Shown here one piece after another: positions 1-47,826 of a stretch of DNA of 57,212 bases. Source of the stretch: a virus. Under the pieces are notes generated by a model. It worked only from the letters and a program-made list of their open reading frames with translations. It was not told the origin of the DNA and searched no databases. Position 1 is the first letter of the stretch, and each line of letters starts with the position of its first letter. The stretch spans positions 1-57,212 of the IMG/VR virus record IMGVR_UViG_3300030106_004085. The stretch is one strand, 5' to 3'. The position numbers and the translations under genes were made by a program.

Positions 1-99
1 AGTGCCTGTTCGGTTGTTAATCACTACCCCAGCATCTTCGTCCAAAGACCACATAGAGATGTTTGAGTATGGGGCACCGTCGTACATCATTTGTTGAAG
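1..99. repeat. Terminal direct repeat, left copy
   Basis: Bases 1-99 are identical to 57114-57212. A reading frame on the minus strand continues through the joined ends in register, so the molecule is circular or circularly permuted with a unit of 57,113 bp. The odd length of 99 suits an assembler overlap better than a packaged terminal repeat. Confidence 0.95.
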
Positions 100-3000
100 C
101 TGGTCGTTCGAGTATTGACCGCTACTTCTAGCAGCCATTACCTCAGTAAATGCGTCAGGCCGCATAAGAACAGCTTCGTGTCCAGCTTCTGATTCTATTG
201 GAGCGCCACCAATAGTTGTACGTAAGCTTCGCTGCCATCCCTGCATGCTTGGATCTGTCATAGCCGATATTTCGTCTCGAAGATGATTGGCCATTAAAGG
301 TATTTCAAGCAGCCGAACAGCACCTTTGAGGCCGAACTTAGCTACCTTTTTAATCAGCCCATCCTTAACAGTTTCCTTGACGTTCTTCATTCCATAACGC
401 TCACCAAGCTCCTGTATAGCTGTGGCGGACATGCCCTTCATTCCATCGGCGATCTTATCTAAGTTTTTAACCTTTCTAGCTTTCAGGTACTTAATAACTT
501 CTTCGCCCAGAACTTCTGCACCTTGGGCACCCAAAGCTTCCATTGGTATTTTACGCAATGCTACGTTAGTCCACTTGCTTAAGGAGTCTTTCATTGAGCC
601 TGTTACATTCATGGTTGCCATGTATGCAATGTTCTGCTTAACCATATCGGACAAATACGAAATACTCTGCCTTTGACCTGTTGCTTCAGACAAACCAACT
701 ACATTGATAAGACCTTCTGGCACCTTATCCCGAATGTCCATGGGCTTATTGATAAGGTCTTCACGCAACGAGCCAAACATCCCTTCTGTCTCTTTACCTC
801 GAACGACTTGATCCTTCCAAGACATGTCGTCGTAACTGATAGGTTGTCTAAATACAGCAGTCCTTCCTTTGTAGGCATCATCATTAAGCGTTGCGTTTCT
901 TAATGATGACATTAAATGATTCCATGCAGGATGGTTTTCTGGTCGGTTATTGAAAGCATCCGGGCTTGCCTTAACATCCTCTCGTATATACGAAGCCAGC
1001 CTGTTTAAGTTGTCTGCATCTTGCTGGCTTATCTGATTCCGAGAAACCATTGTAGATGTCAACTGCTCCATTGAGCCGTACTGCCCTTTACTTAAATCGT
1101 AAGTTCGACTGCTTTCAGCCTCTGCTCTTTCTAGGTCGCTAAGCTTATTCCACTCCGCTGCAGTCTGGAATCCCGACAAGGCTTCACCAATGTCAGTCGC
1201 ACCAGATACCAAGGGAGATTTCTGGATAGCTTGCGCCTTTTGGTAGCTTCGCTTTGCAAAATTAGTGCTTTGGTCAACCTTGTCTTTAGTCCAGTTAGCA
1301 GCCCTTCTTATCTTTCCAGGGGTTTTTGCCTCTCCTTGACTAGCTACGTCATTTAAGGAAGGTTGAGAGCTTTGTGTTGTTTGACTTGCTGCTTGCTGAT
1401 CAGGAACTTGTGCGGTAGTTGGGTTAATCCCTGGAGGAGGATTGACTTGGCTTTTGTGAGTTTGCCCAGTCTCTCCAGCCTTCCGGTCTTGCTCACCATA
1501 AGGAATGGACTGTGTTGTAGGATTGACATTAGGTGTGGCAGCCGGCGGAGGTTTGACAGCAGGTTGCGCGGAACTGCTTACTCCTAATGAGCTTATCCAC
1601 ACCGCGGCCAGTTTCTGTCTCTTGGCTGGATCCATAGTGTTTCTTATGTGGACAGGTACATCTTTCCAGGTTTTTCCTGCAGCATATAACTGATCCGCAA
1701 TTTCCTTGCCGTAACTACCGATTGCATCCTGATACCCTGCCTGCCAGACCTTACTTTCAGGATCTGACACAGGTTCAGCTGTAGGAGTGACATCAGGCTG
1801 ATTGACATTAGGGGGAGGGGCTGACACGGGTTCAGTGGTAGGAGTGACACCAAGGATCTGCCCTGGCCCCGCTTGCCCAGGATCTACCATACCTAAAAGC
1901 TCTCCAGTTATAGGGTCGATTGCAGGGTCAGTCGTAGCGTCAGTGGTAGGACTGACGTCAGGCCTATTAGCTGAATCGCTGTCGCCTATCGGAAGAACAC
2001 TTTCTAAAGTATTTCCTATCTCCTGAGGGGGGCCGCTTAAATCTGAGGTTGCGGCTTCTTGCTTAGCTCTAATTTCTTCCGCTTTTTGATGCAGCTGATC
2101 TTCGGTGGCGAAAGGATCAACCCCTCCTTCAGTTGCTATAATAAGATCCCTATCTATTTCCCGCTGGCTATAAGGTATTTGTTCTGCATCTGGGGCAAAG
2201 GGATCAACCATCTCTTGTTCTGCATCCGGCACAACCTTATTTATCGTATTGCCCTGCTCTCCTGTCAGGTCACGTATAACATCCTCTGGTGATACTTGCT
2301 CAGCCCGCCCAACTAAAGGATTGTCCATGTCAGGCGCAGGTGCTAGTTGAGATGGCCCTGAAACGGTTTCAGTGGTCGGTTGAACTGCCGGTTGAGGCTG
2401 GCTGGAAGGCGGAGGAGCAACAGCCTGAACCTGACTGCCTGTAGTTACAAGTATCTGGGCTGCCATAGACTTCTTGGTTGCCTTAGGCCCTGGCTGTTTA
2501 CCCATACCCAAGAGAAGCGATTTGAGCTGGCTTTTATTCAGGTTATTGGCTAAATAACTTTCATTGCCCGCTGCTATTGCACGCCGAATGGATTCTTTTT
2601 TCTTTGTTTTGAAGCCTTGATTTACTAACCAGTCTTCTATTTCTTGTTCGACCTTATTCATTCCATCATCTTCCATTCCGCCAGCTACAGGTGGTGGATC
2701 TTTAGGTGGTTCTCCATCGCCAGTTTCAACAGCTTCATTTACAATTCTAGATATATCATCGTCGGTTTGTATATCTATCTGATTGTTAGCACCTCCGCCC
2801 ATAAGTTCTTCTTCTGGGATCTCGGTCATTCTGTCTGGGTCATCAAAGGCTGTGAGGATAACTTTAATATACTCTTCGGCTTGAGGGCTAGGCTTGGTGT
2901 CAATAGATAGACCAAGCTGATCTTCTACCATTCGGACAATATCGTCTTTAGTTCTGTTTCCTAGGGTGAGTTCGGCTTCACTGAGGCCGAGTTGAATCCC

Positions 3001-6000
3001 CGCGTTTTTAATCTGGGAGTATGTAACTTTGTCTAAGATGTTATCAATAGGTCTTTGTCCGTCAGGCTGGAACTCCCACTGACTTGGATCTTGCATCATG
3101 CTAGCCAATTGTCCAGTTGTAATGTCTTTTGGCATAATGGAATCTTGCCCGTACCGACTCTCCCCTGGCATTTCTCTTCTTGCATCAGCGTGCAATTGGC
3201 CATACATATTGCCATCGCTTCGATTCGGTCGGTCTTTTTCGTCTGTAGTCTGACCCCAAAACTGATCTGCGTCTGATTCAAGAGGAGTCTTGGCAAACTG
3301 GAATTGGCCTTTACCTGTCCTTAATGTAGTTCTAGCTGCTGAAGCAGAAGCAACTTGAGGTACAGTCATTTGCATACGCACAAGAGTACGCATAACCCGA
3401 CCTCTCACGTTCTTCCAGGTGCTTGCATTAACAAGCTTTTTATCTGATGTTTTAGCGTTCTTGTCATGTTTAGCCAGCCTATCTAAAATAGCAACCTTCT
3501 CTTCGATCGTTGAAGCATTAGCTATCTGAAGTTTGGCATCTAGGTCGAACGTCTGTTGTCCTAAATAAGCTGAGTAGATGTCTCTGTATTGCGGAAGGTT
3601 TGCTTTATCTACCGCTTTACCTTTGTTTCGATGCTTAAGCTCTTCATCCGTAAACGCAGGATTAAATACAAGATCCCTAAAGAAAAAGTCAGGATCTACC
3701 TTAGTCATGTCTGTATCAGGCTGAAGTATAGAAGGCGTGTATCCTATTGGAATGTTATCATAAGACTTGGCTGGGACGCGCCTTGGAGATGGGGGTATAT
3801 ATTCCCTCTGTGCTGTTGCTGCATCATAAGGAGAAGCAAGTCCACCTGGGCCTAACCTGATTGCATTAGGCTGTTGAGCTAAAAGCTCTGCTTCAGCTTG
3901 AGCTTCTGTTATTCCTTTTTGTTTTGCTAAATCTCTAATAGCACGATTGCTAAACGCTTTTGCTGATTCTGTCTTGAGATCAGAGTAAACTTTCCTAAGC
4001 TCTTCGTTTGACATCTGGTCAAACAGTTCCATCTCAGCAACCGTATCGAGTTGCCCTCTGCTTTCGACCCAATCTTGATGGGTTCGAGTTCCACCTTGCT
4101 CCACCTTAGCTCCCGGAGGTAGCCTTAATGAACGAGTAGGAACATTCGTTTCTCCTGCGATCACTGTCCCAGTACGAGTAACTAACCTGGATTCAAAGGT
4201 GGACTTCATAGGGACTAGTTGATAGTTGTTCCCTTTTCTTTTCTCCTGTTTAACAACCATATACCAAGAAGCCAGGCTTCTCTTTTGGCCCGATGGCCCA
4301 GGCTTTCTCGACGTTTCTTGATAATGAAAGCCTTCAACCTGATGCTTCATTATCTGAGAAAGCTCTTTGATGATTGTGTTATATTTACCTTCTCCGCCTA
4401 GCCTTTCAGCGATTTTTGCTGGTGTGTTTGACTTATTCTTTAGTTCTGGAGAATTGACTTCGTAATAAATACTCTGAAGAGCAGACATGACCTCATCATA
4501 CTCTTGTGCAGTTTCTATTTCGTTCAAGACGGTGATCAAATCGTCTGAAAGCATATGTCGTTTATATTTATTTGGCTTTCGTCTTTTAGTTTTAAGATGC
4601 TTCTTTGTAGGCATCTCAACTGAAGTTACTTCAGGGTACTTAGACTTCCCTCTGAATACTTCTACTTCTGCTTGTTTAACAGGTATCTGCTGAAGCTGGT
4701 CTAGTCTTTTAAGTAACCCACGAACGTGTAGCGTTTCTCCTGCTGTCGCAAAATCCTCTGGGCTTGGAGCCATTCTTTCAGGGATGTGTGTTTTCTCAGT
4801 TCTAAGTTGATTGAGAATTTTTGGCTGGCTGCTTGAAAGTATTCCAGACAACAACGACTTATGTATCTGCGCCTGCAGACTGTTCCTGACAATATTGTCT
4901 TTGCCAAATGGATTCCTTTTCAGAACGACAGAACGCCCCTTAATCTTTTTGTCGCTGTCAGAGCTTTGTTCTGTAGTCAATCGGTATATGATCGAATCAA
5001 CTATTCCGGTTTCAAAGAGCTTGTCCAACTGCCTGCCAATTTGCTCGATAGCATCACCAGAAGTCTGAATGTCGTAAGATACTTTTTGCCGTGCTTCCTG
5101 AATAGATATACCTTCCTCTTGCGCCACCCTCTGGGCTAAGTCTTCATCTCTTCCGATTGGTTGATCAGAAAGTTTTATATCATCAAGACTAGATGGTGCT
5201 GGAGAAAATACATCCCTATCATCATATAGATCATCCCCGCCTCCAAGCATATCGCTTTCCAGCTTAGCTTGTGTTGAGTAAGGCAACTGAGAAGCAGGTA
5301 TTTGGGCTGCACTTCTTGCACCGATAGACTCTTGAAATCCTGAAAGCCCGTGAAACATCTCAGCAATAGACTTGAACCTAGCGACATTCTGCTGAATTCC
5401 ACCAAGGTTAACGGTAGGAAGATGGCTATCTATTTGGAATGGCTTTCGGGTTGGAGTCTGACCTCTCCCTTCGACCAACACACCGCCGGAAACAAAGTCC
5501 TCTCCAGAAGTTGTTTCTGTGGTTACGTCGATGTACGGCGTGCGCCCTATCTCTTCTCTTGCTGCATGGAAAGTTAATAGCAATCGAGAAAAATAAAGAC
5601 CATCCTCGGCTATCTTTAGATCTCTATTAATTCTTCGTTGTTCATCTGCGATTGCAGCTCTTTCCCCACTTCCGGCCTTGGTTCTTTCAGCTCTTCGCTT
5701 AAGATCTTCTAGTTCTTTTGTCAGCTCATTTTGCATATCAAAAGACAGCGATCTTAAAGCATGACCTGCATCAGGATCCCAAAACAAAAGGAGAAGCCAA
5801 TCAGATTGCGTACTTGATATAGGGGATTTCGCCATATTTACGAATCCACCTTTGTACTTTGTTATTTTGTTTCTTCTTTCGTTTACCCCATGGTTTGTTT
5901 TGAAGTTATCTCCTAGGTAGATTTTAGGAGTTTCAAGTTCGCCTCTTTGGTTCTTTACCTTAGCGTCATTTAGAAACTCATACAATCTTTTAGCGTACGC

Positions 6001-6510
6001 ATCTTGTTGTTTATTGCTTAAGCTCTTTGGGTTGCCATGGGCATCTGCCTCAGCCTTTAGTTTGTCGATTATTTTTTTGGCTTCGGCGTCTGATTGTTCT
6101 CTGATGTTAGCAGTTGCAGGAAGATACCCAGGAGTTCCTTTAGGGTGCTCCAAGTTCATAAGCCTGCTGTAGTCAAAGGCGTGTGCCTGTGGCGTACTTC
6201 TTTCTACATTAGACCTTCCATTATTTATCTCGCTCTGCGCATAAAGAATTCGCTCATTGACGGTGGTCTTAATCATTCTCTCTAAGACGAATATCTTAGA
6301 GGCATTGATTGCTTTCAGCTTGGCTTTGAGTAATTCAAGCTGCTCTTGCCTACCAACTTGAGACTGGGCTTCTGCTTGGCTTTCAGCTAATTCATAGCGC
6401 TCAGATCGCTTCTGGCTTTCGACGTGCCTTATAGCTTCCTGTAGATACTTATCACTTTCTTCGCTTTTGCCTAACAACTGCTTAATGCGTTGCTCAAACT
6501 TCGTTACCAT
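1..6510 (-). CDS. Giant virion-type protein, N-terminal 2170 residues (continues across the circle)
   Basis: This is an open frame from an ATG at 6508-6510 to the left edge of the window with no stop. After closing the circle it continues in register to the stop at 56250, giving 2457 residues. The N-terminal quarter is charged and helical, including K/E/R/Q-rich stretches likely to form coiled coils. A central region around residues 1305-1350 (near 2460-2600) has a helix-turn-helix pattern like a SAP/Rho-N type fold, which is a weak resemblance. Residues about 1380-1720 are a Pro/Thr/Gln-rich linker with repeats of the type NPTT/VSPTTE, and the C-terminal part is helical again. Its place inside the late operon, directly after other Q-rich structural genes and 12 nt from its upstream neighbour, points to a virion component such as an internal or ejection protein. 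No enzymatic motif was recognised. One copy of the dispersed palindrome lies in the linker at 2358. Confidence 0.85.
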   Translation of the reverse strand, partial: MVTKFEQRIKQLLGKSEESDKYLQEAIRHVESQKRSERYELAESQAEAQSQVGRQEQLELLKAKLKAINASKIFVLERMIKTTVNERILYAQSEINNGRSNVERSTPQAHAFDYSRLMNLEHPKGTPGYLPATANIREQSDAEAKKIIDKLKAEADAHGNPKSLSNKQQDAYAKRLYEFLNDAKVKNQRGELETPKIYLGDNFKTNHGVNERRNKITKYKGGFVNMAKSPISSTQSDWLLLLFWDPDAGHALRSLSFDMQNELTKELEDLKRRAERTKAGSGERAAIADEQRRINRDLKIAEDGLYFSRLLLTFHAAREEIGRTPYIDVTTETTSGEDFVSGGVLVEGRGQTPTRKPFQIDSHLPTVNLGGIQQNVARFKSIAEMFHGLSGFQESIGARSAAQIPASQLPYSTQAKLESDMLGGGDDLYDDRDVFSPAPSSLDDIKLSDQPIGRDEDLAQRVAQEEGISIQEARQKVSYDIQTSGDAIEQIGRQLDKLFETGIVDSIIYRLTTEQSSDSDKKIKGRSVVLKRNPFGKDNIVRNSLQAQIHKSLLSGILSSSQPKILNQLRTEKTHIPERMAPSPEDFATAGETLHVRGLLKRLDQLQQIPVKQAEVEVFRGKSKYPEVTSVEMPTKKHLKTKRRKPNKYKRHMLSDDLITVLNEIETAQEYDEVMSALQSIYYEVNSPELKNKSNTPAKIAERLGGEGKYNTIIKELSQIMKHQVEGFHYQETSRKPGPSGQKRSLASWYMVVKQEKRKGNNYQLVPMKSTFESRLVTRTGTVIAGETNVPTRSLRLPPGAKVEQGGTRTHQDWVESRGQLDTVAEMELFDQMSNEELRKVYSDLKTESAKAFSNRAIRDLAKQKGITEAQAEAELLAQQPNAIRLGPGGLASPYDAATAQREYIPPSPRRVPAKSYDNIPIGYTPSILQPDTDMTKVDPDFFFRDLVFNPAFTDEELKHRNKGKAVDKANLPQYRDIYSAYLGQQTFDLDAKLQIANASTIEEKVAILDRLAKHDKNAKTSDKKLVNASTWKNVRGRVMRTLVRMQMTVPQVASASAARTTLRTGKGQFQFAKTPLESDADQFWGQTTDEKDRPNRSDGNMYGQLHADARREMPGESRYGQDSIMPKDITTGQLASMMQDPSQWEFQPDGQRPIDNILDKVTYSQIKNAGIQLGLSEAELTLGNRTKDDIVRMVEDQLGLSIDTKPSPQAEEYIKVILTAFDDPDRMTEIPEEELMGGGANNQIDIQTDDDISRIVNEAVETGDGEPPKDPPPVAGGMEDDGMNKVEQEIEDWLVNQGFKTKKKESIRRAIAAGNESYLANNLNKSQLKSLLLGMGKQPGPKATKKSMAAQILVTTGSQVQAVAPPPSSQPQPAVQPTTETVSGPSQLAPAPDMDNPLVGRAEQVSPEDVIRDLTGEQGNTINKVVPDAEQEMVDPFAPDAEQIPYSQREIDRDLIIATEGGVDPFATEDQLHQKAEEIRAKQEAATSDLSGPPQEIGNTLESVLPIGDSDSANRPDVSPTTDATTDPAIDPITGELLGMVDPGQAGPGQILGVTPTTEPVSAPPPNVNQPDVTPTAEPVSDPESKVWQAGYQDAIGSYGKEIADQLYAAGKTWKDVPVHIRNTMDPAKRQKLAAVWISSLGVSSSAQPAVKPPPAATPNVNPTTQSIPYGEQDRKAGETGQTHKSQVNPPPGINPTTAQVPDQQAASQTTQSSQPSLNDVASQGEAKTPGKIRRAANWTKDKVDQSTNFAKRSYQKAQAIQKSPLVSGATDIGEALSGFQTAAEWNKLSDLERAEAESSRTYDLSKGQYGSMEQLTSTMVSRNQISQQDADNLNRLASYIREDVKASPDAFNNRPENHPAWNHLMSSLRNATLNDDAYKGRTAVFRQPISYDDMSWKDQVVRGKETEGMFGSLREDLINKPMDIRDKVPEGLINVVGLSEATGQRQSISYLSDMVKQNIAYMATMNVTGSMKDSLSKWTNVALRKIPMEALGAQGAEVLGEEVIKYLKARKVKNLDKIADGMKGMSATAIQELGERYGMKNVKETVKDGLIKKVAKFGLKGAVRLLEIPLMANHLRDEISAMTDPSMQGWQRSLRTTIGGAPIESEAGHEAVLMRPDAFTEVMAARSSGQYSNDQLQQMMYDGAPYSNISMWSLDEDAGVVINNRTGT
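2358..2372. repeat. Dispersed palindrome copy 1 (CTGAAACGGTTTCAG)
   Basis: This is an exact inverted repeat with 6-bp arms and a CGG centre. It lies in the Pro/Thr-rich linker of the giant virion gene, where the minus strand reads Glu-Thr-Val-Ser. Confidence 0.9.
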
Positions 6511-6522
6511 TAAACGATTCCC

Positions 6523-38069: not shown

Positions 38070-39173
38070 ATGAAGAAAGAAAACAAACAGCTTAATTGGG
38101 CATACATGATTGCACCTCAAGCAGGTGTGGCTGCCATGGCATACGGAGATCCAGGTACTGGTAAGACAGAGACAATCAAAGCATTAGCTGGTGCAACCAG
38201 CAGGCTATGGATACTCAACTCACTAGACCAGAAGGAACCGGAGGCCATGGGTGGATTCCCTAAGCCATCTGAAATCACACATCGAGGCAGGACATATCCA
38301 GTAGTAAAGAGAATACCTGAAGAAGACTTCGTGCGTGCCAAGCTTGAGCCATCCGTCATGCTGATTGATGAGTTCACCTGTGTATCAGAGGAGATCCAGG
38401 CAGCAGCCCTAGGATGGATGGCATCACCGCCTGAAAACTGTTGGGTATTTGCAGCAGGTAACAGGATTGAGCAGGCAGCTAATGGTAACGAGCTGACCGA
38501 ACCTATGATTAACAGGATGTTGATCGTAGATTGGGAGGTTGATGTTGATTCATGGAGTGAGGGTATGAACAACGGCGGTGAGTTTAGTCCGCCCGAAGTA
38601 CCTATCCTGCCTGCTGGATGGCAAGAGTTCGGGAAGATATATGCTGTACAGATCGCTGAGTTTGTGACTGGAGACACCACTCACTCACGGCCTGACTATC
38701 TCAATAAGGTCAACGACCCTGAGCGTATGGGTTTACCATTCCCTTCGCAGCGTAGCTGGACTAACCTCGCTAAGGTTCTAGGTGCAGCTGATTCTGTAGG
38801 TGCCAACATGGATACCAAGAATAAGATCGCTGCCGGTATGGTAGGTGAACACATAGCTTTAGAGTTCATGGCATTCCTTGAGCTGAGTGAATACAAAAGC
38901 CCAGAGGAAATACTTGCCAACCCTACTGAGACAGAAATACCTAAGCAAGCTCACGTAGCACTGTCGTATATACGATCTGTACTAAGAGCTGTGCATAGGC
39001 ACACAACTGCTGACAGATGGGAAGCAGCCAGGGTATTCCTTGCATATGTACACAAGAAACTGCCCGATGTTGCCAAGAGTCTTGAAGCTAAGCTGTACCA
39101 GATTAAACCTGAAGGGCACAAGCCTAATCAAGATGAGTTATTCAGTGAGCTAGAAAAAGAAAGGCTAGGATAA
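38070..39173 (+). CDS. MoxR-type AAA+ ATPase, 367 aa
   Basis: Walker A GDPGTGKT at residues 26-33, Walker B VMLIDEF near residue 90, and a sensor-1 type AAGN near 130 are visible. Length and motif order match MoxR ATPases, which pair with VWA proteins in bacterial and phage genomes to remodel or assemble protein complexes. The ATG at 38070 is chosen because AAAGG and a spacer precede it and the upstream frame would overlap the previous gene. It precedes the VWA gene by 11 nt. Phage MoxR-VWA pairs are known but their role is unsettled. Confidence 0.85.
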   Translation: MKKENKQLNWAYMIAPQAGVAAMAYGDPGTGKTETIKALAGATSRLWILNSLDQKEPEAMGGFPKPSEITHRGRTYPVVKRIPEEDFVRAKLEPSVMLIDEFTCVSEEIQAAALGWMASPPENCWVFAAGNRIEQAANGNELTEPMINRMLIVDWEVDVDSWSEGMNNGGEFSPPEVPILPAGWQEFGKIYAVQIAEFVTGDTTHSRPDYLNKVNDPERMGLPFPSQRSWTNLAKVLGAADSVGANMDTKNKIAAGMVGEHIALEFMAFLELSEYKSPEEILANPTETEIPKQAHVALSYIRSVLRAVHRHTTADRWEAARVFLAYVHKKLPDVAKSLEAKLYQIKPEGHKPNQDELFSELEKERLG

Positions 39174-39184
39174 TAGGGAATAAC

Positions 39185-40789
39185 ATGAGTGATTCATTGA
39201 AAACAAATGACTTACAAAGTAAAATAATCTACCGAGAAAGCAATAGTTTAAGGAAGGGTCGCCTTGCAGCAGCGAGGCTATGGCCCTTCGCCAGGAATGC
39301 TATCTTCTCTATGCGTCCTATACCTGTGAAGGGATTCGGTACGCTAGGAGTTGATAAGCACTGGCGACTAGCTTATGACCCGGACTTTATTGAGACACTA
39401 TCTGTCGGTGAACTGGGTGGGGTTATCCTACATGAGCTATTGCACTTGCTTAATAAACATCACGATAGATTTGAGTTAACTAACGACAGCTCAAAGGAAG
39501 ACATATCAGATTGGAATATTGCTACAGATATAGCAATCAACGAGATGTTATCCCAAGAGTTCGATGATCAAAGACCCAGTAAGCATGACAGATTAACCTT
39601 ACCGTTAGATGTTCTGTACTACTGGAACTTAAGTTACTCAGTACCTGGGCTAGAAGAGATAAAGATAGACGATCACTATAGCTCCGAAGAAAACTATAAA
39701 ATTATCAAGAGTTATAGAGAGGAAAGAAAGAAAGATGCCAAGAAAAGCAACCATAAACGCACCGACGAAGGAGAAGTTCCTGGAAGTGGACTCCAAGCTG
39801 GAGCAACTACAACAGACATCGAGGGCACTAGAGGAGTTGATGACAACAGTGTCGAAGATGGACGAGATAGTTCTGACACAGAGCCAGAACAAGGGAGCAA
39901 TACAGACACTAGCACAGCAAATAATGCACCTGAATCACACAACGATCCAGTCGATAGTGGAACTGCAGAACAACCTAGTGGAGCTCAAGATAACAGTGGA
40001 TGCCTTGATGTCTCCGCAGATGGAGAACTATCCTGGACAGGGGATGCACAGACCAGACCCTGTTCAGGAGGCCTTCCGCCCGACCTAAGCAGTGTACTTG
40101 GTGACCCCAACGACGATGAGCATGGCATTGGTTTATCTAAAGATGAGATAGCCAGCGTCATGAAGGACGTTGCGTATCGCACTCAATGCAATGAAGGGTA
40201 CACACCTGCAAGCATGAAGCGATGGGCAAAGGGAGTGTCAAAGCTAACGAACGATCCTTGGCGAAGAGTGCTTAACATAGTTAAGTCCGTAACCAAGAGA
40301 TCAAGAGGGTCAGGTCGCAGGAGATACAACAGGTTTAATTATCGCAGCAATTACAGCAATGTGATATTGCCAACGAGATCTCACAACGAACCCAGGATTA
40401 TGATTTGCTTAGACACATCTGGATCTATGATGGATCTAGACTTTAGCAAGGCACGTGGCCTAGTAAAGAACTTATTCAAGAACCTTAAGCAGACAAACAA
40501 AATAGACATATACACAGGCGACATGGCACTAGAGAATGTAGTGTCTATCAGTAAAGACCTAGCCGAGATGGAGTTAACTGGAGGTGGCGGCACTGATGTC
40601 GGTGTTCTTATTGAGGAATCTCTCAAGGAAATAGAGCACAAGCCAGACATCATTGTAGCTATCACTGATGGTTACACACCTTGGCCAAGTAAAGACATCG
40701 GTATCCCCTTGGTTATAGCCTACACCAGGGACTCGCGGATGCACAACACACCCAAGTGGGCAACCAGTATCCTATTGGAGGAGATTTAA
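39185..40789 (+). CDS. VWA/HExxH (DUF2201-like) protein, 534 aa
   Basis: The N-terminal part is a metallopeptidase-like domain with HELLHLLNKHHDR (HExxH at residues 83-87 plus a third His). Residues about 180-300 are a long Ser/Asp/Gly/Thr-rich linker. The C-terminal part is a von Willebrand factor A domain with the MIDAS motif CLDTSGSMMD near residue 408, followed by TGGGGTD near 460. The combination is that of putative VWA metallopeptidases that accompany MoxR ATPases. Codons of the linker also encode a complete coiled-coil frame (see 39735). The start has a weak GGGAA site. Confidence 0.85.
   Translation: MSDSLKTNDLQSKIIYRESNSLRKGRLAAARLWPFARNAIFSMRPIPVKGFGTLGVDKHWRLAYDPDFIETLSVGELGGVILHELLHLLNKHHDRFELTNDSSKEDISDWNIATDIAINEMLSQEFDDQRPSKHDRLTLPLDVLYYWNLSYSVPGLEEIKIDDHYSSEENYKIIKSYREERKKDAKKSNHKRTDEGEVPGSGLQAGATTTDIEGTRGVDDNSVEDGRDSSDTEPEQGSNTDTSTANNAPESHNDPVDSGTAEQPSGAQDNSGCLDVSADGELSWTGDAQTRPCSGGLPPDLSSVLGDPNDDEHGIGLSKDEIASVMKDVAYRTQCNEGYTPASMKRWAKGVSKLTNDPWRRVLNIVKSVTKRSRGSGRRRYNRFNYRSNYSNVILPTRSHNEPRIMICLDTSGSMMDLDFSKARGLVKNLFKNLKQTNKIDIYTGDMALENVVSISKDLAEMELTGGGGTDVGVLIEESLKEIEHKPDIIVAITDGYTPWPSKDIGIPLVIAYTRDSRMHNTPKWATSILLEEI
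39735..40088 (+). CDS. Nested coiled-coil gene overprinted on the VWA linker, 117 aa
   Basis: An ATG at 39735 with a GAGAGGA site (39717-39723) opens a +1 frame of 117 codons wholly inside the VWA gene. Residues 10-90 read as a regular heptad coiled coil (LEVDSKLEQLQQTSRALEEL, then further Leu/Ile/Val at a/d positions). A short Pro/Gly tail ends it. In this stretch the VWA frame is a disordered Ser/Thr/Asp/Gly linker, so the nested frame looks the more protein-like of the two. It is probably a genuine overlapping gene, perhaps a partner of the VWA or MoxR protein. Confidence 0.6.
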   Translation: MPRKATINAPTKEKFLEVDSKLEQLQQTSRALEELMTTVSKMDEIVLTQSQNKGAIQTLAQQIMHLNHTTIQSIVELQNNLVELKITVDALMSPQMENYPGQGMHRPDPVQEAFRPT

Positions 40790-40790
40790 G

Positions 40791-41195
40791 ATGGCTAGTT
40801 TTAGCAATGTAGTAATAGTTGGTAACCTAACAAGAGATGTTGACTTGCGTACTGTTGCAACCAGGAATGGCGACAAGGAAGTAGCAGATATAACAGTAGC
40901 AGTTAACGATGGTTACGGAGAAAACCAGGCAGTTAGCTTTATTGATGTTACTCTATGGGGTCAGCCAGCTAAATTCGCAAGCGACTTCATGGGTAAGGGG
41001 TGGCCTGTCTTAGTGCAGGGTACACTGAAACAAGAAACCTGGGAGAAGGATGGGCAGAAGCGAAGCAAGATCAAGATCGTCGGTAGTACGATTAAGAACT
41101 TGAGATCCAAGAGGGAAGCTGAAGAGATGGGGCTAGGTACTGAAACGGTTTCAGCATCTCAACCATCCTTCGATACAAGTGCACCACCATTCTAG
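40791..41195 (+). CDS. ssb: Single-stranded DNA-binding protein, 134 aa
   Basis: An OB-fold SSB: the start SFSNVVIVGNLTRDV, the strand pair SFIDVTLWGQPAKFA (residues about 48-62), WPVLVQGTLKQETWEKDG and KIKIVGSTIKNL are all characteristic. The C-terminal tail is short and ends SFDTSAPPF, lacking the usual acidic DDDIPF tip, so partner binding may be unusual. The palindrome copy at 41140 sits in this disordered tail. GGAGGAG precedes the ATG, and an inverted repeat follows the gene. Confidence 0.93.
   Translation: MASFSNVVIVGNLTRDVDLRTVATRNGDKEVADITVAVNDGYGENQAVSFIDVTLWGQPAKFASDFMGKGWPVLVQGTLKQETWEKDGQKRSKIKIVGSTIKNLRSKREAEEMGLGTETVSASQPSFDTSAPPF
41140..41154. repeat. Dispersed palindrome copy 7 (CTGAAACGGTTTCAG)
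   Basis: An exact copy in the disordered C-terminal tail of the SSB, read as Glu-Thr-Val-Ser. Confidence 0.9.
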
Positions 41196-45471: not shown

Positions 45472-46261
45472 ACTAATAATCAACAGAGAGATTCAAGAGC
45501 TTTTGCCTGAGCTAAGTGAGGCAGAGTACAAGCAGCTAGAAGAGAATATCATCAGTGCCGGAGGAGCAAGAGATCCTATTGTTGTGTGGAAGGAAGAGAA
45601 CATCATCATAGACGGTCATCACAGGTACCATATATGTGATATGAATGGCCTATCGTTTAGCACGAAGATGCTGTCGTTCCCTGACAAGGCTTCTGTTTTT
45701 GGGTGGATGGTAAAGAACCAGGAAGGTCGAAGAAACATGACACCCAATGCCATCTCTTACCTGCGAGGAAAGCACCTTAGTGAACTACCAGAAGGTGAAA
45801 GAACGCAAGCTGCTAAGGCGTTAGCTGAGTCAGCCGGCGTTACTGACAGAACGGTGTGGTCTGACAAGGCGTTCGCCGAAGAGGTAGATGAGCTACCAGC
45901 AGACGAAAAGAAAGAAGTGCTTCAGCGTAAGAAGCGTACCAGAGCTGTTGGTGAAAAGAAACCAAAGGCAGAAGAGCTTTGGTATGTACTTGAAGGAAAG
46001 CCATACCGAGCAGCGAAGAGAGAACTTCATAGGATACTCGCTGAGATGGAGACTATCTCCGAGGATCCTGTACGAGGCAAGATAATTGCAACTAAGTTTA
46101 CTCGTATTAAACACAACCTTGATGAAGCGATTGATGCTATTAGCCAGTGTGAACCTGTAGAGGAGTGTAACGGATGCACAATAGAAACAGCAGCGGGATG
46201 CAACAAATGTTTTGGGACAGGGTTTCTAAGCCGCGCAGCCAAGGAAAGCAGGGATCGTTAA
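45464..46261 (+). CDS. ParB-like protein with C-terminal zinc finger, 265 aa
   Basis: Residues 1-100 match the ParB N-terminal nuclease/CTPase domain, with DGHHRYHICDMNG (about 50-62) as box II. A helical middle includes an HTH-like SAGVTDRTVWSDKAFAEE (about 125-142). The C-terminal 40 residues have Cys pairs (CNGC and CNKCFGTG, the second of DnaJ type). In phages such ParB-fold proteins act in partition, DNA binding or as co-activators of enzymes. The DNA target is unknown; the dispersed palindrome is one possible candidate. It overlaps the helicase start by 88 nt. Confidence 0.8.
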   Translation: MSELIINREIQELLPELSEAEYKQLEENIISAGGARDPIVVWKEENIIIDGHHRYHICDMNGLSFSTKMLSFPDKASVFGWMVKNQEGRRNMTPNAISYLRGKHLSELPEGERTQAAKALAESAGVTDRTVWSDKAFAEEVDELPADEKKEVLQRKKRTRAVGEKKPKAEELWYVLEGKPYRAAKRELHRILAEMETISEDPVRGKIIATKFTRIKHNLDEAIDAISQCEPVEECNGCTIETAAGCNKCFGTGFLSRAAKESRDR

Positions 46262-47826
46262 GTTATTTTAAGGAGAGAAATTACCAAGCTCAGGCAAGAG
46301 AGGCTGTCGAAGAAGCATTCAAATCATACGACTCTGTTGTCATAGAGCTTGCAACTGGACTGGGTAAGACTGAAGTCTTTACACAGATAATGAAGACCTG
46401 GACAGCGGGGCGATGCTTAGTCATCGCCCCGTACATTGAACTAATATCTCAAGCAGCGAAGAAGATCTATGCAAGAACAGGTGTACAACCTGGCATTGAG
46501 CAAGGCCCCAACTGGTCTGTCGAAACTCCATGGGGTAGAAGCAAGTATGTCGTGGCTTCTAAGGATACACTTATTTCTAGAGATCCACCTCGTTACGAAC
46601 GGCTGCGAGATATTGGGCTGGTTGTGGTGGATGAGGCCCACTTATCTATTACAAGCAGATGGAAAGACTTACTTGATTACTATCGAAAAGATGGAGCCAA
46701 AGTTCTTGGCGTTACAGCCACAGCAAAGCGACATGATAGAAGAGCAATGCTTAACAACTATGAGTATTGTGCATTCCAATACGGTATTAACCAAGCCATT
46801 GATGAAGGCTGGCTAGTACCAGCAAAGAGCTGTTGTGTACAGCTTAAGTCCCTGGACTTAAAGGATGTATCCACTACGAACACAGTGTTTGGTGCAGACT
46901 TCAATCAAAAAGAACTAAACAAACTATTAGAAGACTACGAAACAGTAGCGGAGATAGCAGATGTTACCGCAAGAGAAACACGAGGAGAGAAGACCGTTGT
47001 TTACTGCTCCTCAGTCGAAGAGGCAAAGCTCGTCGGACAGCGACTCAATGACAACTACGGAATCAAAGCCGACTGGATTGCTTCAGACCCCAAACGATGC
47101 ACCCCACAGCATAGACGAGAGGTTATGCGATCTTTTCAAGAAGACACTGAGGGTATTACTCATGTCTGCAATGTGGGTATCCTTACTACTGGGTGGGATT
47201 TTCCTGACCTTCGAAACATTGTCATGGCTAGACCCACCAAAAGCCGTGCCTTATACACTCAAATTTTTGGGCGTGGTACTAGGCCTCTCAGTGGCGTGGT
47301 TGATTTCGATAATAGCAATGCTGACACTCGGAAGGAATCTATAGAGTTTAGCGACAAGCCTCACTTCAGAATGATAGACCTGGTTGATGCCAGCCTTGCA
47401 CACAAGATAGTTACGTCAGTAGATGTAATGGGAGGTGAGCTGGGATTTGATGTACTTGCCCGAGCAAAGGACAAGATGATCGAAAAGGAAAAGGCTATGG
47501 ATCTTGATGATGTGCTGCTTGATGCACAGAAAGAAGTCCGTGAGCAAAGAGAAGCTGAAGAGCGAGAGAGAAGAAGGAACATTAAAGCACGAGCTGACTA
47601 CAACAAGTTCGATGTTGATCCTACAAAAGGTGGAGGCAGTGGAGTACGCACGAAGAAGAAGGAGAGAGGTGCGAGAATGCCATTCGGTAGATTTAAAGGA
47701 AAATTAGTACGGGACTTAGAAACGTGGTACATAAAGGGAGCCATCTGGCAGGACAGACCTAAGATAAGCAAAGGCTGGTTAAGGGATTCAATGATACGTG
47801 AGCTAAACAAGAGGCTTGGATTATGA
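46174..47826 (+). CDS. SF2 DEAH helicase, 550 aa
   Basis: Superfamily 2 motifs: Walker A ATGLGKT (about residues 58-64), DEAH box VVDEAHL (about 152), VTATAKR (motif III, about 185), a strand LTTGWDFPD (motif V region, about 340), and QIFGRGTRP (motif VI, about 370). The start ATG at 46174 has GAGGAG at 46160-46165 with suitable spacing, although it lies inside the ParB-like gene. The C-terminal 100 residues are a charged helix then a basic domain. It probably unwinds DNA at replication or recombination forks; together with SSB, RecE-like, ERF and RusA it fits a recombination-dependent replication set. Confidence 0.88.
   Translation: MHNRNSSGMQQMFWDRVSKPRSQGKQGSLSYFKERNYQAQAREAVEEAFKSYDSVVIELATGLGKTEVFTQIMKTWTAGRCLVIAPYIELISQAAKKIYARTGVQPGIEQGPNWSVETPWGRSKYVVASKDTLISRDPPRYERLRDIGLVVVDEAHLSITSRWKDLLDYYRKDGAKVLGVTATAKRHDRRAMLNNYEYCAFQYGINQAIDEGWLVPAKSCCVQLKSLDLKDVSTTNTVFGADFNQKELNKLLEDYETVAEIADVTARETRGEKTVVYCSSVEEAKLVGQRLNDNYGIKADWIASDPKRCTPQHRREVMRSFQEDTEGITHVCNVGILTTGWDFPDLRNIVMARPTKSRALYTQIFGRGTRPLSGVVDFDNSNADTRKESIEFSDKPHFRMIDLVDASLAHKIVTSVDVMGGELGFDVLARAKDKMIEKEKAMDLDDVLLDAQKEVREQREAEERERRRNIKARADYNKFDVDPTKGGGSGVRTKKKERGARMPFGRFKGKLVRDLETWYIKGAIWQDRPKISKGWLRDSMIRELNKRLGL

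Follow-up and report, generated by a model that had tools for sequence, protein, structure and literature searches.

A probable coiled-coil gene nested, in the +1 frame, within the VWA gene of a phage MoxR–VWA module

The locus and its embedded reading frame

The sequence analysed (the window) was the 57 kb virus record IMGVR_UViG_3300030106_004085 at its whole length, positions 1–57,212. On its plus strand, a gene for a MoxR-type AAA+ ATPase (38070–39173; PF00004, E = 9.6e-5; PHROG 1297, E = 1.3e-35) lies directly upstream of a gene (39185–40789, plus strand) for a protein of 534 aa. Pfam and PHROG searches divided this protein into an N-terminal metallopeptidase-like DUF2201_N domain (PF13203, residues 34–199, E = 1.4e-16), a linker, and a C-terminal VWA-like domain (PF09967, residues 406–531, E = 7e-11), and the whole protein matched PHROG 1314 (E = 5.7e-41). 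With a MoxR-type AAA+ gene adjoining a VWA gene that has a DTSGS motif, the pair constitutes a MoxR–VWA module. The gene encoding a single-strand DNA-binding protein (SSB) follows directly downstream (40791–41195, plus strand; PHROG 44, E = 1.6e-26), and an SSB gene is likewise found 3' of the VWA gene in the relatives L131, L125, and L126. Among the other products of the record are a helicase, a RecE-like exonuclease, and a portal protein related to PHROG 156/332, for which no match was retrieved from the phage collection.

An open reading frame of 117 codons, running from ATG to TAA at 39735–40088 (plus strand), is shifted by +1 against the VWA gene, which contains it completely, and covers the linker of that gene; the original prediction was exact in its coordinates, start codon, frame, and containment. 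The VWA codons beneath it (39734–40087, plus strand, approximately residues 184–301) are largely disordered in the VWA frame. The frame had also been credited with its own ribosome site. A putative ribosome-binding site (GAGAGGAA, 39717–39724, plus strand) does place GAGG, as part of a ribosome-site-like GAGAGG, approximately 12 nt 5' of the ATG, but its predicted anti-SD duplex is modest (−6.0 kcal/mol) and that of the close relative L005 is weaker still (−2.7). The site is clearer in most other lineages, and in each carrier lineage, the nested ORF has an ATG of its own with a ribosome-site-like sequence 5' of it; this comparison is partly circular, as the carrier candidates of the main ORF survey were pre-filtered for an SD-like motif. 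The ORFs of the window, L017, L018, L020, and L040 were found without this filter.

AlphaFold2 modeled residues 9–92 of the nested protein as a single helix with pLDDT mostly above 90, whereas residues 190–270 of the VWA frame received a pLDDT of approximately 30. Both models are supportive only, as few homologous sequences lay behind them (6 for the nested protein and 12 for VWA), and AlphaFold2 is prone to draw helices for coiled-coil-like sequence. By prediction, the heptad pattern and the long helix together mark the product as a coiled coil, consisting of one long heptad helix between short basic/Thr-rich and disordered tails. Foldseek returned no match for the nested protein, and its matches in Pfam, PHROG, and the PDB had the look of weak coiled-coil similarities and were disregarded.

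Other reading frames in the record were also inspected. A 127-codon +1 ORF (46961–47344, plus strand) inside the helicase gene (46174–47826) reads like two membrane segments. It is kept in the near-identical L200 and is interrupted by stops in L201 and L202; thus, it is probably a chance ORF, and helicase-gene +1 ORFs were dropped as further hidden genes. L201, the helicase homologue of the L131 contig, is otherwise 69% identical but has one TGA stop in the helicase frame, possibly representing the gene end within the match, a sequencing error, recoding, or a pseudogene. Positions 1–6522 of the window contain no closed ORF of at least 100 aa, as would be expected if a long gene on the minus strand extended past the left end.

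Distribution among relatives

Scans that started from the window's VWA protein by itself, from its nested ORF, or from its MoxR protein directly matched only two near-identical contigs (95–97%). Searches of phage records by tblastn, with VWA and with the nested ORF as queries, gave no match, and neither did a single-sequence scan of genome contigs. More distant family members were reached through alignments with plasmid VWA proteins; one candidate VWA homologue, VBP47 ORF 4825–6123, was set aside as not being VWA.

Nested-frame stop codons in the corresponding linkers of relatives had been named beforehand as the observation that would count against the gene, and the gene passed this test. The ORF is intact in both near-identical contigs, and at least six more lineages, all diverged, with VWA proteins 25–33% identical to that of the window, have a nested-like ORF at the equivalent position and in the same frame. 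Carriers of the +1 ORF comprised L131/L017, L163, L125, L126, L120/L020, L121/L040, L122/L018, L098, L096, L097, and L123, of which L098, L096, and L097 are contigs from Planctomycetota genome bins and are possibly viral. An intact ATG-started ORF was present at the equivalent site in 14 sequences, plus three found later. L205, L206, and L207, found after the prediction, also carry the nested ORF, and the pattern thus predicted new data. The nested start lies approximately 85–130 codons past HExxH, where this motif is present, and the ORF ends before DTSGS. A MoxR homologue was present in all nested-clade loci tested, truncated by the contig end in some. More distant VWA relatives outside the nested clade lack the embedded ORF, which is what a single gain of the gene would predict.

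A profile of the nested proteins of L131, L163, L125, and L126, searched against six-frame translations of all loci, matched the window ORF with E = 2.8e-6, while the best unrelated match had E = 0.36. By such sequence matching, homology of the nested protein is established only within the sub-clade of the window, L131, L163, L205, L125, and L126. The nested proteins of group B (L120 and L121), group C (L122, L098, L096, and L097), and L123 gave no significant match to this family; they resemble it in site and frame, in beginning with a short basic/Thr-rich stretch, and in their coiled-coil character, and their homology is thus positional. No homologue of the nested family was found outside the VWA gene in flanking loci or viral contigs. 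The viral-contig scan is a weak negative for standalone copies, as it also missed diverged members already known.

Coding evidence and selection by reading frame

As a null model, the VWA amino acids were kept and synonymous codons were redrawn 2000 times, with a simple home-made measure as the heptad score. The +1 frame of the window was still open in 6.8% of the recodings. An open +1 frame alone is weak evidence, because acidic, Ser-/Gly-rich linkers yield few +1 stops. The coiled-coil pattern, unlike openness, is more than that: the heptad score observed in the window was equalled in 0.05% of the recodings, and in all 12 carriers tested, the score was reached in at most 0.55% (p ≤ 0.0055).

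Substitutions were compared by frame in six pairs of relatives, whose alignment was guided in part by the nested protein. In the VWA domains, differences fell mostly at VWA third positions (first to third positions, 387:828), whereas in the overlap, the ratio of VWA first to third positions was 173:70; VWA first positions correspond to nested third positions. This codon-position flip between overlap and domains was significant for the pooled pairs (Fisher p = 6e-30) and for every pair singly (p ≤ 0.0017), and in a seventh pair (L205/L207), the differences at nested positions 1, 2, and 3 numbered 2, 0, and 10. The direction of the flip was unchanged under nucleotide-based alignment and, for most pairs, under VWA-frame alignment; the exception was L096/L097, a pair in which the linker far exceeds the nested ORF in length and third positions lead in the VWA-frame alignment.

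With sites counted by their effect in both frames and the six pairs pooled, dN/dS was 0.34 (0.27–0.43) in the nested frame and 1.01 (0.78–1.39) in the VWA linker. Six control linkers without the ORF gave 0.96 and 0.64, the reverse of the carriers, and most of the differences in control pairs, or joint most, were at VWA third positions. Between L125 and L126, identity is 71% for the nested protein, compared with 31% for the same DNA read in the VWA frame. Comparison of substitution patterns by frame among relatives, the check proposed with the original prediction, thus came out on its side: within the overlap, purifying selection on the nested frame exceeds that on the host frame. The overlapping VWA stretch is a disordered linker with almost no constraint on its amino acids. 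The claim that the nested frame is the more protein-like of the two holds by predicted fold and selection but fails by codon usage, in which the host frame looks like an ordinary gene of this phage.

The evidence has to be weighed against a compositional accident, in which an acidic linker rich in D, E, S, and G is stop-poor in +1 and yields M, I, K, L, V, and E-like residues that merely look like a coiled coil. Recoded linkers of most nested-clade members outside the sub-clade of the window are indeed usually open in +1 (up to 100%), and this genome has other long +1 ORFs that arose by chance, such as that in the helicase gene. However, the heptad score exceeded the synonymous null in 12 of the 12 carriers tested, selection shifts to the nested frame only where the linker carries the ORF, and the nested ORF stays intact among relatives while the helicase ORF acquires stops. 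The dN/dS and codon-position results already contradict such an accident, which we regard as extremely improbable. The sequence comparisons instead indicate that 39735–40088 almost certainly encodes a protein of its own, as a genuine gene lying within the phage VWA gene in its +1 frame.

Origin of the embedded gene

In a VWA tree built without the linker, the 16 carriers all lay on one side of one branch, which corresponds to a single change, and a single origin is thus sufficient. The support of this branch is weak (71/52), because L127, which is without the ORF, sits beside it; an earlier quick tree placed L127 within the clade, which would imply a loss. Most simply, the nested gene would have had one origin in the common ancestor of this MoxR–VWA clade. 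Codon usage in the overlap resembles that of the phage's own genes in the VWA frame, while the nested frame scores as off-frame, which suggests that VWA is the older frame and that the coiled coil was overprinted on it.

The original prediction had left open whether the gene arose de novo or invaded the linker. Insertion of a pre-existing coiled-coil gene into the linker in the +1 frame would account for a linker of approximately 120 aa in the window, compared with 20–43 aa in some relatives without the gene, and small coiled-coil-like ORFs do occur near the MoxR–VWA genes of L127 (2399–2632) and of L136 and L177 (3837–3986). Against this, gene-less relatives such as L124 have equally acidic linkers of up to approximately 137 aa, the overlap has native codon usage in the VWA frame and off-frame-like usage in the nested frame, and a standalone homologue was not found in flanking loci or viral contigs. 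Relatives without the ORF have linkers of approximately 20–160 residues, many of them acidic. As acidic linkers thus pre-exist outside the clade and the VWA frame has native codon usage, de novo origin is favored and invasion is considered unlikely. Overprinting de novo also fits a published trend, in which internal overprints are mostly in +1 and de novo +1 proteins are enriched in hydrophobic and depleted in acidic residues (review PMC8227390).

The small ORFs of these relatives are observations in their own right. L127, a close relative with a short VWA linker and without the embedded ORF, has a standalone ORF of 77 aa just 5' of MoxR (plus strand), which is possibly a relocated or analogous gene. 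L136 and L177, in which the embedded ORF is also absent, share a conserved ORF of 49 aa directly 5' of the VWA gene (plus strand). Homology of these ORFs to the nested family was not detected.

Expression of the embedded gene

We propose that the part of the MoxR–VWA mRNA covering the overlap would be translated from two starts, that of VWA and the internal one, and that VWA and the coiled coil would thereby be made together. The original prediction had offered a frameshift product joining the VWA N-terminus to the coiled coil as an alternative. Two features of the window are compatible with such a fusion being the main product: the nested frame is open for 66 nt 5' of its ATG, and an A-rich stretch lies upstream of the ATG (GAAAGAAAGAAAG). 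Among the relatives, however, a nested-frame stop precedes the ATG by 12 nt in L131 and L163 and by 18 nt in L096, which leaves little room for frameshifting. An ATG with a ribosome-site-like sequence occurs in every lineage, and inspection of the upstream sequences revealed no slippery motif in common. The frameshift product is thus disfavored and appears very unlikely, and internal initiation is the favored route to the coiled coil on the present sequence comparisons.

Proposed role and comparison with known systems

The coiled coil would oligomerize and serve the MoxR–VWA remodeling complex as an adaptor or accessory subunit, either recruiting substrates or bridging the ATPase ring and VWA. 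This role, suggested by the position and coiled-coil character of the gene, has in our estimate about an even chance of being correct. The gene could also be real and its product serve something unrelated; a phage regulator or an anti-host factor hitch-hiking on the mRNA would be examples. We consider this a substantial possibility, though somewhat below an even chance: accessory functions are frequent among overprinted viral genes (PMC8227390), whereas the gene was found only within the VWA gene, with a MoxR homologue alongside in all nested-clade loci tested. This location fits a partner role, short of proof. Under the adaptor reading in its fullest form, phages and Planctomycetota-binned contigs would hold a concealed third MoxR–VWA component, an overprinted coiled-coil subunit that is co-translated with VWA and essential to substrate handling, with the hidden frame constrained and the annotated frame reduced to near-neutral filler; we hold it tentatively, at slightly less than even probability.

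The embedded frame is a well-supported and anciently conserved case of overprinting in a tailed phage, and genes of this sort are known to escape gene callers. A disordered linker here doubles as the coding room of a structured protein, and selection has measurably moved to the hidden frame. The gene also points to a third player in MoxR–VWA modules.

MoxR AAA+/VWA pairs include RavA–ViaA and CbbQ–CbbO. MoxR/DUF2201-VWA pairs also occur in N4-like phages and actinobacterial plasmids, and N4 gp24–gp25 and the DUF2201 proteins resemble the present locus in having a MoxR-type ATPase gene beside or near a DUF2201 or VWA-like gene. The embedded coiled-coil ORF was not identified in the phage, plasmid, and actinobacterial MoxR–VWA homologues examined, whose VWA proteins are approximately 19–29% identical to that of the window; the clade described here differs from the known pairs in its extra third, hidden ORF. 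An embedded gene in a MoxR–VWA module was not found in the literature searched, of which coverage was partial.

Embedded phage genes as such are already known: lambda Rz1 sits in the +1 frame of Rz, and genes of this type often go unannotated (PMC6139136). In the Rz/Rz1 two-component spanin, as in the present locus, one small phage gene is contained entirely within another, in its +1 frame. Coiled coils are predicted in the i-spanin, and the two spanin products assemble into a complex. The spanin differs in its host gene, which here encodes the VWA protein of a MoxR module and not a lysis protein. By inspection, the nested N-termini are basic/Thr-rich (MPRKATINAP..., MAKAKTTKTT...), without the hydrophobic signal or lipobox of an Rz1-type spanin. 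The internal +1 overlap is also shared with phiX174 D/E and other overprints. In contrast to phiX174, the host here is a larger tailed-phage genome and not a small compressed one, and the present overlap differs from these systems in that the apparently older frame is disordered and near-neutral, whereas the younger frame is the constrained one.
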